Positions 10,074 through 32,375 of a stretch of 64,000 nucleotides of DNA are shown here, one piece after another. A program made the translations under genes and the position numbers. The stretch covers positions 1 through 64,000 of the forward strand of contig JAQYUZ010000025.1 of NCBI GenBank assembly GCA_033819885.1, in the 5' to 3' direction. The first letter of the stretch is position 1. Each line of letters begins with the position of its first letter. The notes below the pieces were generated by a model. That model made no database searches, was not told where the DNA came from, and was given only the letters and a program-made list of their open reading frames with translations. The DNA is from Microbotryomycetes sp. JL201 (lineage: Eukaryota > Basidiomycota > Microbotryomycetes).

Positions 10074-12061
10074 CTAGAGTTCATCCTCCAACCTCTTTCG
10101 ACTGTTTCTCAATCTTCTCTTGCCACCCCATTTGTCTATGAATCTCGACTGCTCGTGTTCTCTCCAACCTAGGCCGACTCGTCTCATTCGACGAAGTCGA
10201 CGCAATCCGAGCATGGTTACGGTACCTGCGAGAGCGAACGACATTGCTGTGACGATAGGGAAAGCGAATGGGTGATCTTCCATGTTTGTTGTCAACTGAA
10301 TCGCGCGAGACGAGGTCAGCATTCACAAAACTCGCAAAACGCAGTTGTTCCAGTCAAACCAACGCACATTCTGTTCAACGAAAGAAGATATGACAAAGAT
10401 CAGCCCAATGAAAGTTTTCAAGGAGACGACGCAGACTGACCATGCCGAACAAACCAGCTATTAGCGCGCCAGAAGTCAAACCTAACGTGGCAATCGAGAC
10501 TCGAAGGTCGTAACCGAGCAAAGAGTTTCGATTCGAGTCTAAAATCAGCTCGATAATATCTTCTGTACTCCTGACGTTGGCCTGTGACCATTCATCAGCG
10601 TTCGGACGCAAGTGTTCATTCGCGCGAGCGCACTGACCGACAAAGTTTCGACCTCGCTGACGATTTCTTCACATCGCTTGCTGAAACTTTCAAGCAACAG
10701 TTCTACCTCTTCATGGTCGTCCGCGCTGCGAGGTTTGCCCTCCAACTTCGCCGTCAGATACATGGCAGCAAGATCATCATCTGGGCGCCGGAGGATCAGC
10801 GCTTCTTGTCGCGACACAGGAGCTGCAGCTCTGCAACTGACCGTTCTCCAGCACTTCTTCAAGACACTCTTGTACGAGCGTCGCGCGCTTCTGAAAAGCA
10901 GACAACTTGCGCGAGTATTGCAACAGCAACCGCAGCTTATCGCGCTCGATATGGTCCTCCAGCTCGGCGAGCAAAGTCAACACGAGAGACCTGATATTTG
11001 CTAGCTCGGTTTCCAACGCGGTCGTTACTGAGATGAGACACGATTCGAGTGCCCTTTTTCCAGGCGTGGGTCAGTGAAACGCCGCGGATGGCTATGGTCA
11101 GGGCATACCGAAACTCATAAGGCAGTCCGTGAGCCGACCTTCCAGTGGACTTCAGGGCGCCCTGTTTGCTGTAGTTGATCAATTCTCGTTCCGACTTGAC
11201 TGCAAATTTTATAGGCTTACTTCGAGGTGCCACACAAACACGCCTTTTAACCAGCTATCTTCTGAGCCGACAGAGTCGAATAAAGCAACCTGTTTCCCTG
11301 TGATGACGACGCGGAGATGCAAAACTGTGACGATTATGCACGACCTTCGTACAAGAATTGTCGGAACGACCGTGGGGACGGCACTGTCGAGCTTGCGCAA
11401 ATCGCGAGGCTGTATATTGTAGCGTGTACACAGTTCAAGCTTGCTGAACTGCCTTGCGGTCGTCGTGACAATGCCTGCAGCCAAAAGAACGTGCTTGCGG
11501 TCAGCGAGTTTTTTTTGCCACTTGCTTGCTCGAGGCCGGAATGCGAGTCGCTTCAGACTGACCGTTCCCGTCAAGTGTGGTGCATCGGATGTCGAGCGTG
11601 TTGCCTCCGCTCAGTGGTCCGCTGCGCGCACCGCCTCTGAGTGTGCGTTCAATCGCCTTGGCCATTTCGGCGTTTCTTCGCCACGCCTGCTCTTCCTCAT
11701 CTGTCCGCTTTTCCTTTTTCATTTTCAGCCATCTACCAAGGAATGATGCGCTAGCTTGAGCTTGCTTGTAAAGCGTCACCGCGTCCGCCGTCGTTGTCGA
11801 CGATGGCCTTTGTGCCAGACTCGTCTGCGCCGCAGACGACGAGCTGTCGGAGGTCCGAGCGACGTTGGTGTCGGACACACCTGTGAACAGATCGAGTATC
11901 GACTTGAAACCTGAAGGGTCGCCATGAGATGCTAGCGAGCGTCGGCTGGTTGCGAAATGACGACGATCGCCCGGCGTCTGCAGCACACGAGTAGACGCAC
12001 GTCGGGAGCACGAGCACGTGCACCGTAGTAATGCCCGGGGCGTCGAGAGGCCAGTGGCCAT
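10074..12061 (-). CDS. MRS2: Mitochondrial magnesium channel Mrs2/Lpe10 (CorA family)
   Basis: Pentameric Mg2+ channel of the mitochondrial inner membrane. The N-terminus MATGLSTPRALLRCTCSCSR is an Arg/Ser-rich targeting sequence (a Met 16 codons upstream, at 12109, is an alternative). Spliced exons give LDIRCTTLDGNGIVTTTARQ, TRYNIQPRDLRKLDSAVPT, LPYEFRYALTIAIRG, a long helical region with DDLAAMYLTAKLEGKPR, and HEEVELLLESFSKRCEEIVS. TM1 is the conserved block RVSIATLGLTSGALIAGLFG; TM2 follows after DHPFAFPIVTAMSF. The invariant Gly-Met-Asn gate motif is completed only by a 3-nt exon (10368-10370) placed between GLFGM and LTTNMEDHPF. Without that exon the protein would lack the Asn. The C-terminus is Arg-rich. 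Confidence 0.93.
10368..10370 (-). other. 3-nt microexon encoding Asn of the Mrs2 GMN motif
   Basis: Minus strand: ...GGC ATG, then an intron (10371-10440; gtcagt ... ttgaacag), then AAT, then an intron (10296-10367; gtgcgt ... gcgattcag), then TTG ACA ACA AAC. Both introns have normal donors, acceptors and branch-like ctgat/ctgac sites. Reading on from AAT without splicing meets a stop after 15 codons. Skipping AAT gives GM-LTT, without the invariant Asn. Confidence 0.8.
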
Positions 12062-12239
12062 CGACTCGGCGAGTTCAGGTCGGCTCGCGCTTCGCGAGAA
12101 ATCGAACATGAGTCTGATCCGGAGACCAGACCCGCAGAAATTGCTGCACACCACGCAGTATCAGCTCTGCGCTCTCCTGCAATCCTTGTTGGAGTTCATG
12201 CTATGCAATTTGCAGATTTCTACTTGGTTAATTATCACG

Positions 12240-12370
12240 TGACTCCAATCACCTATAATTCCTCAGCCCGTCTCGTACCCTGATGTTACTAGAGACGATC
12301 TGACACGCTTTTACTGCACGTCAAGGGGCCTCCACTCTTCGGACCCCCTGTTTCTCCGGTCACATGACTC
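12240..12370. promoter_or_regulatory. Two TGACTC (Gcn4-type) half-sites upstream of the bZIP gene
   Basis: TGACTC occurs at 12240-12245 and 12365-12370, in the divergent region between MRS2 and a GCN4-type bZIP gene. This hexamer is the core recognised by Gcn4-family proteins. Two hits in about 370 bp is only modestly above chance, so autoregulation is a suggestion. Confidence 0.25.
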
Positions 12371-12433
12371 GATCGTTCTCGGCGGCTCCTGCCTCCATCC
12401 CAAGACCCGCACGAACAGCATCTCCTTCGGCAC

Positions 12434-14287
12434 GTGGTGAGAACAGCTTCTGCAGCCATACATTGCACGCGAGTTCTCGAGTGCAGCCGTACACGTGTGC
12501 GTTACAAACCCGCTTACTCAGCCTTTCGGCGCCGAAGACCTCGCGCCGGCCTCGCGCTCGCTTCTGCTTCCTCCACTTCGAAGCTGTCTCGTCCAACAGA
12601 AGTGTTCTCTCAAGCGCACACCCAAGAGTCAGTGCATTCAGTCGCGTGCGTGCTAGCGACGATGCTCACGCGCCTCGACAGCTCGCGCGCCTCGGCATCC
12701 TCGCCTCCACCTAGCACTCTGACGCCTGCATCCGTGGCCACTCACCAGACTCGGTTACAGACGCGCCGGAATGCCTCCGCTCGCTGCCACACTCCCCCGA
12801 AGACTACCGCGAGCCGCTCGAACGAGCGCGAGCCAGCGCGAGCTGCGCACGACTTGATGACCCAAGCACGGGCCGCCGACGGTCCCTTTGCCACTGCTTC
12901 GCATTCTGATCCCTTTACAATGTCACTGGTCACACCGTCCCACACTCACCGAGAATCGTCCCCCTTGTTCGGGTTCAACGAGGAGCCCTCATCGCCACTC
13001 GGCTCGTCTGGCGCAGACGCGCTCCCGGCCATTCGACGCGCTCCGGCGCCGCCAACGGCCATTCACAACAGCAAGACGTCGCATGGAGGTGCGTTCACTC
13101 GCGGCCCGAACTATGTGCATGGCACCGAGTCTGATCTCATCCTCACGCCACTCTCGCTAGGAGCCTCGGGTCCTGTCGACTACACCTGGTCGCCTGTGCC
13201 GTCGACGACGGACGCCATGACGCGCAGTCTCGTCAAGACAGAGCCCATCTCGTCGTACGATCCCATGTCGTCATATCCTTTTGCAACAACGGCGCTCGAC
13301 GATTTCTCGGTGTCTCCACTGCCGATGCTTGGTGCAAACGCTTCGCCGTCGCTTCTGCAACATCGCGCTCTTACGTTTGACGCCACACTTGAATCGCCTC
13401 TTGACGCGGGGTACGATTCGCCGGACGGATCGAGCGACTTCCAGACATCACCGTTTGACGACTTTCTCCAAGCGCCGATGACTGATTACTCATCGTCTTT
13501 ATTCGATCCAGCGTCTTCACTTGCGGCGTCAACATCTACAATCAAAGCAGAAACGGCTGGACCCCTCAGCGAGCTGTTCCCAGACTTGAGTCTGTCGGCA
13601 GCAATCAAAGACGCGGACGATCGCGACGCTGACAGCACAAGCGAGCGCGGATTTGCACCTCCTCCCGTTCGTGACGACAGCTTGTACAGCTCGAACGGTC
13701 ACATTGACGCGCAGCTGAGAGATGACGGCGAGTTCCAAGCCGAAGACGACGACGATGAAGAACCGAGCGCGCAGGTTCGAGACGGAGAAGATGACGATGA
13801 ATACGTTCCTGGCACTTTCGACGGCAGCAAATCCGCAGTCAAGAGACGGAGTCGCAAGCGCAAGTCGCCGAGCTCGCGAATGTACGATGATGATGACGAG
13901 GACAGTCTCCCGTCGTCCAAGCGACATTCGACCGGTCCACGCCCGCCTTCGGTCGTTCCTGTTGACGCTCCCATCCAACCTCGCGTTTACAAAGGAGAGT
14001 CCAAGACATCGCGCAAAGTGTTGCCGAAAGCGATGGCCAAATCGATGGCTGCGCACAAGAATCGACAGAAATCGGTCGCGGCCGGCTCAGCGGAAGCCGA
14101 CGAAATTGACGACGTGACGCGCGCCATGGTCGACCAGCGAAGGCAACAAAATACGATTGCTGCCCGCAAGAGTCGTGAGCGCAAGGCGCAGCATCTGGCC
14201 GGTTTGGAAGAGGCCGTAGATCGGTTGACCGAGGAGAACCAGATGTTGAAGCAGAGACTGATGGACGCCGGACTGCCTATTGATTAG
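12434..14287 (+). CDS. GCN4/CPC1-type bZIP transcription factor
   Basis: Nuclear activator of the kind that drives amino-acid biosynthesis genes during starvation. The C-terminus carries a bZIP: basic region QQNTIAARKSRERKAQHL with the NxxAARxSR signature, then a short leucine zipper with heptad spacing LEEAVDRLTEENQMLKQRL. Upstream are acidic and Ser/Thr/Pro-rich activation regions (about residues 140 to 450) with DDF and hydrophobic clusters such as SPFDDFLQAP. A Lys/Arg cluster VKRRSRKRK is a likely nuclear signal. There is no intron in the long frame. The true start is uncertain: the first 75 residues look like translated leader, and in-frame Met at 12662 or 12857 is as likely. A 116-codon frame beginning at 12364 would overlap such a start as an upstream ORF. 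Confidence 0.8.
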   Translation: MVRTASAAIHCTRVLECSRTRVRYKPAYSAFRRRRPRAGLALASASSTSKLSRPTEVFSQAHTQESVHSVACVLATMLTRLDSSRASASSPPPSTLTPASVATHQTRLQTRRNASARCHTPPKTTASRSNEREPARAAHDLMTQARAADGPFATASHSDPFTMSLVTPSHTHRESSPLFGFNEEPSSPLGSSGADALPAIRRAPAPPTAIHNSKTSHGGAFTRGPNYVHGTESDLILTPLSLGASGPVDYTWSPVPSTTDAMTRSLVKTEPISSYDPMSSYPFATTALDDFSVSPLPMLGANASPSLLQHRALTFDATLESPLDAGYDSPDGSSDFQTSPFDDFLQAPMTDYSSSLFDPASSLAASTSTIKAETAGPLSELFPDLSLSAAIKDADDRDADSTSERGFAPPPVRDDSLYSSNGHIDAQLRDDGEFQAEDDDDEEPSAQVRDGEDDDEYVPGTFDGSKSAVKRRSRKRKSPSSRMYDDDDEDSLPSSKRHSTGPRPPSVVPVDAPIQPRVYKGESKTSRKVLPKAMAKSMAAHKNRQKSVAAGSAEADEIDDVTRAMVDQRRQQNTIAARKSRERKAQHLAGLEEAVDRLTEENQMLKQRLMDAGLPID

Positions 14288-22785: not shown

Positions 22786-24632
22786 ATGACCGCAGTCGCC
22801 ATCCCAATCGGCCAGCAGGCACCATTCGACGACGAGCGATGCTACCAGCGTCTCGCCTTGTCACTCTCCGCCTCACCCGCCCGCGCACACTCGCTCTTGG
22901 CATCGAGTCCGCGCCACCACGTCCACAAACCCGCTGCGCCCGAACATGACCGCCCTGCACCGGCCTATTCGCCCGAGAACAACGCTCAGCACCACAAATA
23001 CTCAGCAGTCATCGACGGGTCGACAAAGCCTACACGCCCGCTCAACCAGGTCGATGCTTTGCCACAAGTTCATTCGGGCACGATCCTTGACAACTTTCGC
23101 GCGGCCCTCCAAGATATCGACCTTGAAGAGTGTGAGGCCCACGGCGACAATGCCTTCTTCGTGTGCGACCTCGCAGAAGTGTATCGCCAGCATGTCAGGT
23201 GGATGCGCGAGCTCGGACACCGCGTTCAGCCCTTTTTTGGTACGTGTTGCACAGGCACCCTGGCCAAGTCTGCTCTCGAATCCTCTGGCTGACACATTGG
23301 CGTGCGCCGACACACATTTCAGCCGTCAAATCCAACCCTGATCCATACGTCTTGCGGCTGATGGCGGCTCTCGGCCTCGGCTTCGACTGTGCGTCGCAGC
23401 CTGAAATCTCGGCCGTACTCGCGCTGCCTCATCGCCCGGAGCCGTCGCGCATCATCTATGCCAACCCTTGCAAGGCTGCGTCGTTCGTTCGCAATGCAGC
23501 AAAGAACGGAGTCAACTATATGACTTTTGACAATGGCGACGAGCTCGTCAAGATCAAAAAATATCATCCCAACGCCAAGATGGTTCTTCGCATCCTGACG
23601 GATGACTCGAGCTCGCTGTGCCGACTCGGCCTCAAGTTTGGATCCCCCTTGTCTGAAGTCAGAGGCCTTCTTAGAAAGGCAGCGTCGCTTGGCGTGAACG
23701 TTGTCGGCATCTCGTTCCACTGCGGCAGCGGATGCAAAGATCCCTCATTGTTCGGAGATGCCATTCGACGTGCACGGTGGGCATTCGATGTCGGTGCAGA
23801 AGAGGGCTTCAAGTTCAACCTGCTCGATATTGGTGGCGGATTCGAAGATGGCAACTTTGAGGCGATCGCCGCCGTTCTTCGCGAGGCCATCGAGCAATCT
23901 TTCCCACTTGCCGCTGATGGTTCGGGCGTGCGTATCATCGCCGAGCCTGGACGCTACTACGTCTCGCGTGCGTTCCAGCTCGCCACCAACATTATCGCTC
24001 GACGAGCTGCGCGCGACGGCGTCAACGACGAGACGTCCATGATGGAAGGCGTCGACGAGACCCCCGAGGACGAGGCCAAGCCAACGGCCATGTGTGCGTA
24101 TCGGTTCGCCGCCTTTTGATTTTCCGCCGCCTGCTGACAAATCCTTCCACTGGGGCAGACTATATCAACGACGGCGTGTACGGCGCTTTCAACTGTACCA
24201 TGTTCGACCATCAGGTTGTACACCCAGTCGTGATGACGCTTGACGATACCTTTTATGATTCCGCCGCTGTCGATTTGGGACCGCTCGAGGAGTGCTCCGT
24301 TTGGGGTACGTGGCCACCTTGATCTGAACCGCGAGTTTTGACTCACTGTCTCCAATCTGTCAGGGCCCACCTGTGATTCGATCGATGTCGTTCAGCCTCA
24401 CGCTCAGCTGCCTGTCAACGTCTTGAACGTCGGCGACTGGTTGCGATGGGAAAACATGGGCGCCTACACCATTTGCGCCGCGAGCCAGGTGATTTTTCAA
24501 TCCCCTCTTATGCCCGCAATCACAAACTGACTTTATCATGCTCAGTTCAACGGTTTCCGCAAGTCCCTTGTTCGCTACACGATCGACGCCGACCGCAACG
24601 TCGAAGCCAAGATTCGAGCCTTGATCGCCTAG
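22786..24632 (+). CDS. SPE1: Ornithine decarboxylase
   Basis: PLP enzyme making putrescine from ornithine, the first committed step of polyamine synthesis; cytosolic homodimer. The start MTAVAIPIGQQAPFDDERC is followed by a long low-complexity N-terminal extension (about 95 residues). The fold then begins with FFVCDLAEVYRQHVRWM and, after an intron, AVKSNPDPYVLRLMAALG, which holds the PLP lysine. Other key parts: GISFHCGSGCKDP, LLDIGGGFED (phosphate site), IIAEPGRYYV, and, in later exons, YINDGVYGAFNCTMFDHQ and WGPTCDSIDVV with the catalytic Cys of the partner subunit. The C-terminus ends KIRALIA. All catalytic residues are present. Four introns. Confidence 0.96.
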
Positions 24633-30508: not shown

Positions 30509-30993
30509 GATGCTGTGACAGCCAGATGACGATGATCGCTTGGCGGGAGCAGCACAGACGCGGGCGGGCGCAACCTTGCTTGGCGGTGTTTGAGACGATA
30601 GAAGCGAAAGGTGCGGCTTTGGCTTTTGACGGACTCTCCGACTTGTAGTTATCACGCGCCCATAAAGCGAGCAAGACTTGACCCTGTGAGTAACTGTCTA
30701 TGGCACATGCGGAACTAGGTTCGAACGACCGGTGCCCTGCTACACGAGCCATCAGCGTTGACTCGAGTACGCCAGAGCGTGCATCCGCAAGCGCTGCAGC
30801 GACCGGTCAGAGCTTCTTGTGCACAGACACTGCATTTGAGGTGGCTCGCTTTGTGGCGTCCTGCAACTGCAAGGCTTGATTCGGAACTGACAGTCTCCCG
30901 CTGCTGCCAGCTTTCGCAGCCGAGAGCTCACAAACTGACCGGCGTACGAACGGCATAGCACACCCCTGCCCTGCCTGCGATAGGTCTCACAGC
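30509..30993. promoter_or_regulatory. Divergent promoter of the large unknown gene and THR1
   Basis: 485 bp between start codons. It includes TGACTC at 30759-30764, about 230 bp upstream of THR1, which is a Gcn4-type core and would fit general amino-acid control. A single hexamer match is weak evidence. Confidence 0.3.
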
Positions 30994-32375
30994 ATGGCCG
31001 GCTCACCCGCCACCCGCAAAGTCAGCTTGGCATCCGCATTTGAATTCGATTCGGGGACAGTGGCTGATTCTCGTCCCTGCACATTACAGTGGACTATCCG
31101 CGTGCCAGCGTCCTCGGCAAACATTGGCCCTGGGTTTGACGTCCTGGGTCTTGCCCTGACACGTTATTTGACGCTTCAAGTGTCCTCGACGCCATGTGAC
31201 CCTGCTGAGAGCAAGGTCGTCCTGAGTTACGAGGGCGAGGGCGCAGGCGAAGCGCCCCTCGACCCGTACAAAAACTTGATCACGAGGGTCGCTCTCTACG
31301 TTTTGCTGTCTCATGATCTCTCATTCCCGTCAGCGGTTGTTACCGTCGACATTACCAACCAAGTGCCGTTCGGTCGTGGCCTGGGTTCCTCTGCGTCCGC
31401 CGTCGTCGCCGGCGTCTTGCTCGGAGACGCTCTCGGCAACTTGAGGCTGAGCCAAGAGCGCGTCAAGGACTATGCTCTCATGGTTGAGCGCCACCCGGAC
31501 AATATTACGGCTGCACTCGTCGGTGGATTCACTGGATCATTCTTGCGCATCCTCGACCCCTCGGAACTAGCACCTTCGTCCATCCCGCTGGCAGAAGTAC
31601 TGCCAGAATACCCTGCCAATGCCGGTCCGCCGAAACCAGGAGACGAAAAACCGCCGCAGCCGCCCACGAACGTTGGTCGTCATGTTCGATATGGATTCTC
31701 TCCAAAGGTCGGCGTTGTCGTTGTCGTGCCAAAGTTCGAGGTTGCCACATCAAAAGCCCGCGGTGCGCTTCCACAGGAGTATCCTCGCGCCGACGTTGTC
31801 AGTCAAACGGCTGAACCATTCGCTCACCTTTGTGCTGATGGGATCGGATTTCCGTCTACGCCAGGTCTTCAACTTGCAGCGGTTAGCCGTGTTGACGGCA
31901 TCATTGGCTCAGTCGCCGTTAGATCCCAGTGTGATCTGGGAAGCCATGCGCGACAAGGTTCATCAACCTCAACGAGAGGGCCTCGTGCGTGTGGTCCTAA
32001 TGCGGTCTTGTATTTCGGGGATGACTGACCTCCATGCGCTCCCGTCAGATCCCTGGCTTGTCGAAAATTCTGAACACGATGACACCAGCGACAAATCCCG
32101 GCCTGCTCGGCATTTGCCTATCTGGTGCAGGACCAACCATCCTGGCCCTCGTTTCAAAAGAAGAGCAATCACCTTCGGAAAACACTCTTATTTCGACGGA
32201 CGTGTCTGACATCACGTTGGCTTCCAAGTCCGACTTGCACGACGGCAAGGTCGCTGCGCAGCGAATGGAGGCTGTCGGAGAAGCGATCAAACAGCTTTGG
32301 AAAGAGGATGGAATAGAAGTTGAATGGCATGCGCTCGAAGTCGACCATGAAGGCTCAACTTTGACGGCACATTGA
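30994..32375 (+). CDS. THR1: Homoserine kinase
   Basis: GHMP-family kinase that phosphorylates homoserine in threonine synthesis; cytosolic. The start is MAGSPATRKVSLASAF. The N-terminal domain has VPASSANIGPGFDVLGLAL and the ATP-binding glycine-rich loop VPFGRGLGSSASAVVAG, then RHPDNITAALVGGFTGSF. After two introns come FNLQRLAVLTASLAQSPLDP and the C-terminal GHMP motif LGICLSGAGPTILALV, and the end at DHEGSTLTAH. A Pro-rich insert of about 15 residues follows EVLPEYPANAG; otherwise the length is normal for fungal Thr1. Confidence 0.95.

Follow-up and report, generated by a model that had tools for sequence, protein, structure and literature searches.

A probable one-codon exon carrying the filter asparagine of a fungal MRS2 gene

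Can a single codon stand as an exon of its own and supply the asparagine of the Gly-Met-Asn (GMN) motif of an Mrs2 channel? In published work the GMN motif is taken to be the selectivity filter of these proteins or their site of Mg2+ capture (PMC11919701, PMC10632456). The question arises in the MRS2 gene of Microbotryomycetes sp. JL201, which lies in the window, the whole 64,000-nt stretch of DNA that was analyzed. The codons for Gly-Met and for the Leu that follows the motif are separated there by 145 nt. An earlier note placed a one-codon exon, AAT, within this interval and proposed that skipping it might act as an on/off switch.

The MRS2 gene model and the AAT codon

The MRS2 gene was modeled on the minus strand from 12109 to 10074 as eight exons that all join in frame and encode 524 aa (Table 1). 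The product matches the solved Mrs2 structure 8q8q_A over residues 173–498, in the soluble and transmembrane (TM) region (homology search, E 4.2e-89), and three stretches of the gene score above the Pfam cut-off as MRS2-like. One MRS2-like locus was found in the 17.15 Mb genome (92 contigs), so no second copy was seen to supply the Asn. From its family, the 524-aa product is predicted to be a typical Mrs2 channel for Mg2+ whose GMN filter is intact, and its mitochondrial location and Mg2+ transport are likewise predicted. The JL201 database protein, P0001, has 443 aa compared to 524 in our model, starts differently, and is missing some of the N-terminal region. The 5' end of that annotation looks misannotated or uncertain.

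Table 1. Exons of the MRS2 gene model and the two introns around AAT.
Feature	Position	Strand	Description	Basis
Exon 1	11563..12109	-	start codon inferred; 5' end uncertain, database protein starts differently	
Exon 2	11221..11474	-		gene model, genome search
Exon 3	11109..11161	-		gene model, tblastn with P0002
Exon 4	10842..11053	-		gene model, genome search
Exon 5	10638..10780	-		gene model, genome search
Exon 6	10441..10581	-	end of soluble domain and TM1; last codons GGC ATG (Gly-Met)	model, homology
Intron 6	10371..10440	-	70 nt, GTCAGT...GCTGAT...GAACAG, phase 0	read in DNA, gene model
Exon 7	10368..10370	-	3-nt exon AAT, Asn of GMN	read in DNA; relatives' read-through ORFs compatible
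Intron 7	10296..10367	-	72 nt, GTGCGT...GCTGAC...ATTCAG, phase 0, in-frame stop if retained	DNA, model
Exon 8	10074..10295	-	LTTNMED loop, TM2, C terminus, stop	model, homology

Exon 6 closes with GGC ATG at 10441, and exon 8 opens with TTG ACA ACA at 10295. The two introns between them and the AAT that they enclose are read directly in the DNA, as the earlier note had described. Each intron has its own donor, GCTGAY branch motif, and CAG acceptor, and the branch A lies 29 nt from the end of intron 6 and 20 nt from the end of intron 7. These signals resemble those of the gene's other five introns, whose donors are GTCAGT (three), GTAAGC, and GTATGC, and four of which contain CTRAY (it is absent from 11220–11162). 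Inclusion of AAT gives the 524-aa protein with GLFGMNLTTNMEDHPF, and GMNLTTNMED aligns with GMNLENFIEE of 8q8q, with GMN at the end of TM1 and the conserved Glu in the loop. This agrees with the earlier expectation that inclusion yields the family sequence. Skipping of AAT gives 523 aa without the Asn, and retention of intron 6, intron 7, or both ends the protein early at 465 or 471 aa; the predicted loss of the Asn on skipping and the predicted stop on read-through are both seen in these models. Skipping is the sole alternative outcome tried that preserves the reading frame. Introns 6 and 7 show no more similarity to each other than shuffled sequence does (their score is reached in 40% of 500 shuffles), which leaves an origin by duplication of one intron unsupported.

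Joins with one or two introns were tried in the region 10500–10251, with GT or GC donors, AG acceptors, and introns of at least 40 nt. A single two-intron join out of 234, the one with the AAT exon, gives GMN with the downstream frame open to EDHPF. Four of the 74 one-intron joins in this region are open to EDHPF, and none of the 74 gives GMN. The full anatomy of a 3-nt exon was written as a GTNNGY donor 50–100 nt upstream, CTRAY, YAG/NNN/GTNNGY, CTRAY, and YAG 50–100 nt downstream. It occurs once on both strands of the 64 kb, as AAT at 10370–10368. When the interior of the 145-nt interval was dinucleotide-shuffled 20,000 times, the full anatomy arose with any codon at a rate of 0.0001 and with AAY at a rate of 0; the AAY rate is 0.00065 once the branch and length demands are dropped. 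The pattern GCTGAY..CAG/NNN/GTNNGY..CTGAY recurs genome-wide (18 matches compared to 4 for the reversed pattern), so the anatomy alone is not proof. What appears to settle the 3-nt exon is the homology of the encoded protein rather than splice signals alone.

The junction in annotated homologues and in relatives

The best protein match of MRS2 is P0001, annotated for Microbotryomycetes sp. JL201 (98% identity, 84% of the query). P0001 reads GM-LTTN (GMLTTN) with the Asn missing, and the annotation therefore passed over exon 7. The best 120 of 1097 homologues were examined, and the top 28 are 27 named Microbotryomycetes plus P0004, with genus placement by one species per genus. Any GMN string is missing from 17 of these 120, all of them among the top 28. 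An exact one-residue gap follows GM in 16 of the 28, JL201 included, and 10 of the 28 have a clean GMN. The GMN string is found in 92 of the 92 remaining homologues, and it is present in Atractiella, which belongs to another class of Pucciniomycotina. Exact loss of the Asn from otherwise well-conserved proteins is the effect that a 3-nt exon is expected to have on gene finders. These annotated proteins suggest that gene finders often merge both introns and drop the Asn, and the GML database proteins fit a gene-finder miss better than real isoforms. On a tree of 35 sequences the annotated GML label requires 8 changes. The label is an annotation state, and these changes are therefore not taken as gene history; 8 of the 32 inner branches of the tree are open, P0116, P0027, and P0083 are long branches, and Microbotryum may be misplaced. 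The remaining two of the 28 are P0003 and P0023. P0003 (Leucosporidium) reads GMN, then 22 extra codons ending in Gln, then LSTRLE, as if the second intron had been retained in frame. P0023 (Rhodotorula araucariae) is aberrant, with GMDRRV... between GM and LTSQLE, and no CAG/AAY/GTNNGY-compatible site was found in it.

The earlier note had called for a comparison of the same junction in related basidiomycetes, and this comparison brought out compatible sites in several lineages. The splice sites of relatives were deduced from translated open reading frames (ORFs); a search for MRS2 DNA of relatives gave 52 pattern matches in viral contigs and 202 in bacterial or archaeal contigs, none of them confirmed. 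A C-terminal profile search of proteins was used, and the best 120 of 257 matches were examined. Contiguous GMN is missing from 16 of these 120, and 11 of the 16 keep family homology up to GM. The other five (P0226, P0227, P0237, P0238, and P0239) were left out, their homology stopping before GM. The six bases that follow GM can be GTNNGY in 10 of the 10 ORFs with GM in frame. Six read-through ORFs extend at least 38 codons past GM, and five of the six (P0122, P0173, P0175, P0203, and P0231) contain exactly one CAG/AAY/GTNNGY-compatible site in three frames, which sets the first intron at 53–60 nt; for P0203 the frame was assumed, and its intron count may be two bases short. No site was found in the other five read-through ORFs, which stop 12–22 codons after GM, and the longest-reaching, P0233 (22 codons), nearly gets to the expected position of the site. 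The background of compatible sites is 21 in 216,573 positions of other proteins, and shuffled peptides reach one in 0.3–3% per ORF. When all 64 middle codons were tried on the five ORFs, AAC fits four and AAT three, and no other codon fits more than one.

Two ORFs appear to have one intron each. P0178, which extends at least 38 codons past GM, has Gln and then Asn joined to LTSRLE; it would have the first intron only, and its Asn is continuous with the downstream exon. P0169, whose nearest named protein is that of Sporobolomyces phaffii, reads GMN, then 32 intron codons, then LTSHLE; it would have the second intron only, its Asn being part of the upstream exon. P0169 came from an exon-8 search that gave nine proteins. 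Two of these, P0242 and P0247, start within exon 8, and a third, P0167, is from another lineage and has GMN contiguous. The same search brought in P0241 (nearest to Rhodosporidiobolus), which has a compatible site with a first intron of 70 nt and a second of 98 nt. The named proteins nearest to P0175, P0231, P0122, and P0173 are from Phenoliferia or Pseudohyphozyma. P0122 and P0173 are left unplaced because they are only about 80% identical to the nearest named protein over 89 residues. P0203 is closest to Leucosporidium by exon 8. As translated, these ORFs conserve the position, phase, and coding value of the exon, with P0023 unexplained, and the CAG/AAY/GTNNGY signature between Met and Leu appears to recur in several lineages. 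Separately, in P0246 an acceptor-compatible Gln stands immediately ahead of exon 8, and the opening codons of this ORF can be read as ATGTNNGY (exon end plus next donor). P0246 is similar to P0178, both are of an unplaced lineage, and the Asn is joined to exon 8 in P0178 only; the contrast suggests that the second intron was lost in one of the two.

A set of Rhodotorula records places a likely transcript beside likely genomic sequence. P0004, an ORF of 542 aa whose contig is no longer than 1778 nt, has GMNLLNRIEE at the junction. P0244 is identical to it at 81 of 82 residues of exon 8, has the same variable tail, and reads PSTQ right before LLNRIEE. P0230 is identical to P0004, P0006, P0008, and P0009 in exon 6 (47/47), and donor-compatible sequence follows directly after its GM. 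The nearest annotated relatives of P0004 (P0006, P0008, and P0009) are without the Asn, and the tree puts P0004 inside their clade. The records bear only source tags, and from the ORFs we infer spliced RNA as the source of P0004 and genomic DNA as that of P0244 and P0230. Both introns therefore seem to be present in the Rhodotorula group, alongside an uninterrupted ORF that contains the Asn.

Splicing of the two introns and rival readings

We consider it very probable that AAT is a constitutive microexon of 3 nt that is widespread in Microbotryomycetes and frequently annotated wrongly. The earlier proposal that a one-codon exon supplies the Asn of GMN is backed by the DNA, the chance statistics, and the relatives. 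Positions 10370–10368 would then be a real spliceosomal microexon, normally included, between two ordinary short U2-type introns that could each be recognized by intron definition. The 3 nt between one acceptor and the next donor leave hardly any room for both assemblies, so the introns are probably removed successively. With the first intron gone, the second would resemble an ordinary intron beside a long exon, and the expected end product is an Mrs2 Mg2+ channel with its GMN filter intact. The two-intron arrangement appears to be widespread in the class and is probably old there. The lineages with a single intron and the Asn fused to one neighbor would reflect intron loss rather than gain.

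A regulated switch is an unlikely alternative to constitutive inclusion. It would have the exon skipped conditionally, so that some subunits are full-length but lack the filter Asn and poison the pentameric channel. Skipping keeps the frame (523 aa) and the three retention outcomes are truncated; a ring of Asn binds Mg2+, the yeast Mrs2 GMN triple mutant shows reduced growth (PMC11919701), and a fungal microexon switch has been reported in Trichoderma (PMC11121469). The Asn binds Mg2+ in CtMrs2 (PMC11919701, PMC10632456), and together with the growth defect of the mutant this means that a skipped form, if it is made, should be a poor or poisonous subunit. The arrangement is not universal, however. 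The Asn is fused upstream in P0169 and downstream in P0178, so skipping is impossible in these lineages, which argues against a conserved switch, and the Asn is included in P0004. These observations count against the on/off switch put forward earlier. The description of the Asn as a gate residue also does not hold, because Met and Arg rings further down the pore have been proposed as the gates of Mrs2, and GMN is placed as the filter or Mg2+ capture site (PMC11919701, PMC10632456). A specific form of regulation is speculative and has a small probability. In it, Mg2+ or stress would change how far the exon is included, mitochondrial Mg2+ uptake would be tuned through a skipped form that acts as a built-in poison subunit, and only the two-intron Microbotryomycetes would have kept this system.

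It is very unlikely that the 145 nt are a single intron and that the gene truly makes a GML protein as annotated. The JL201 database protein and 15 others do read GML, but GMN is found in all 92 other homologues (best 120 of 1097), and it binds Mg2+ in solved channels (PMC11919701, PMC10632456). The interval also holds a complete internal acceptor, an AAY codon, and a donor, which are matched in relatives, and P0004 has GMN within the GML clade.

A stwintron or a recursive splice site, in which removal of one intron first creates the signal of the other, is highly improbable. Adjacent introns with almost nothing between them are suggestive of it, and stwintrons, defined by an internal intron that interrupts a signal of the outer one, are known in fungi (PMC6616335). 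Against this, each of introns 6 and 7 already comes with a complete set of signals of its own (donor, branch motif, and acceptor), and the three bases are kept in the message. A strict stwintron is excluded by the sequence: the internal intron interrupts no donor, branch, or acceptor. At a recursive (zero-exon) site the acceptor abuts the donor and no bases are kept. Here AAT separates CAG from GTGCGT, and GMN cannot be made without it. A decayed gene, an assembly error, or coincidence is barely credible, since its one attraction is the oddness of the exon, and it runs against eight exons in frame, a single MRS2-like locus found, and a signature that recurs in other records.

What stands out, if AAT is the microexon proposed, is a one-codon exon that carries a pore-filter residue and recurs across a fungal class. 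The pore-filter codon of a mitochondrial channel would be its own exon, in an arrangement that appears to recur across several orders. It would offer a natural test of how the spliceosome copes with an exon that cannot accommodate two complexes at the same time, with the one-intron lineages as ready-made controls. The annotations, too, seem to carry a systematic error, the family-defining residue being missing from 16 of the 28 closest homologues (best 120 of 1097).

Comparable exons and other loci

Exons of 3 nt (homothorax) and 1 nt (plants, Fusarium) and a fungal microexon switch are already known. No report of a fungal MRS2 microexon or 3-nt exon was found in the open-licence literature that was searched. 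The Drosophila homothorax 3-bp micro-exon is, like AAT, a one-codon spliceosomal exon that is evolutionarily conserved; its 3 bp form the beginning of an alternative exon of 48 bp and fall between two domains (PMC7392893). In MRS2, unlike homothorax, no longer alternative was seen, and what the codon specifies is a conserved residue of the filter. The 1-nt exon of Fusarium CYP621A resembles the MRS2 case in being fungal, ultra-small, placed in a conserved motif, and inferred by comparison, and it has read support according to its authors (PMC12940212). It supplies one base of the PKG Gly codon in a P450 without a known function, whereas the MRS2 exon is a whole codon in a mitochondrial channel. 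The 1-nt exons of plant APC11 and VPS55 are likewise conserved, missed by reference annotations, and lost with introns in some lineages; they differ in being in plants and in other genes and in having RNA evidence (PMC8831610). The Trichoderma Xlr2 microexon is also fungal and missed by gene models, but it is 20 nt long and glucose-regulated (PMC11121469); the sequences analyzed gave no hint of regulated inclusion for the MRS2 exon. Spliceosomal twin introns share with introns 6 and 7 the tight packing of fungal introns and possible removal in sequence (PMC6616335). The MRS2 pair is not a stwintron because neither intron interrupts a splice signal.

The other genome-wide pattern matches were checked for a comparable exon. 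Four of 17 have a joining with at least 150 nt open on both sides (L003, L013, L016, and L018), and a second convincing 3-nt exon was not found in the three of these four that were inspected, L003, L013, and L018. The look-alike at L013 (G000:C34:293400-296000) resembles, by eye, the ordinary exon end of a seryl-tRNA-synthetase-like gene, and it is a warning for searches by pattern only. CorA-type loci L001 and L002 are located elsewhere in the genome. Contiguous GMN codons were not found in the fetched stretch of L001, and GMN is contiguous in the DNA of L002.

Some MRS2 annotations of relatives have additional features. That of P0002 (JL221) is 896 aa long and has no match in the window after residue ~454 (tblastn, E 1e-3); it may be merged with another gene. 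The Rhodosporidiobolus annotations P0020 and P0022 also bear Pfam PF05347, and these are perhaps merged gene models or a fusion. In the window, a long plus-strand ORF with a bZIP domain (12368–14287) is divergent from MRS2, and two further plus-strand ORFs carry an ornithine/arginine-type decarboxylase domain (23136–24119) and a GHMP kinase domain (30880–32028).
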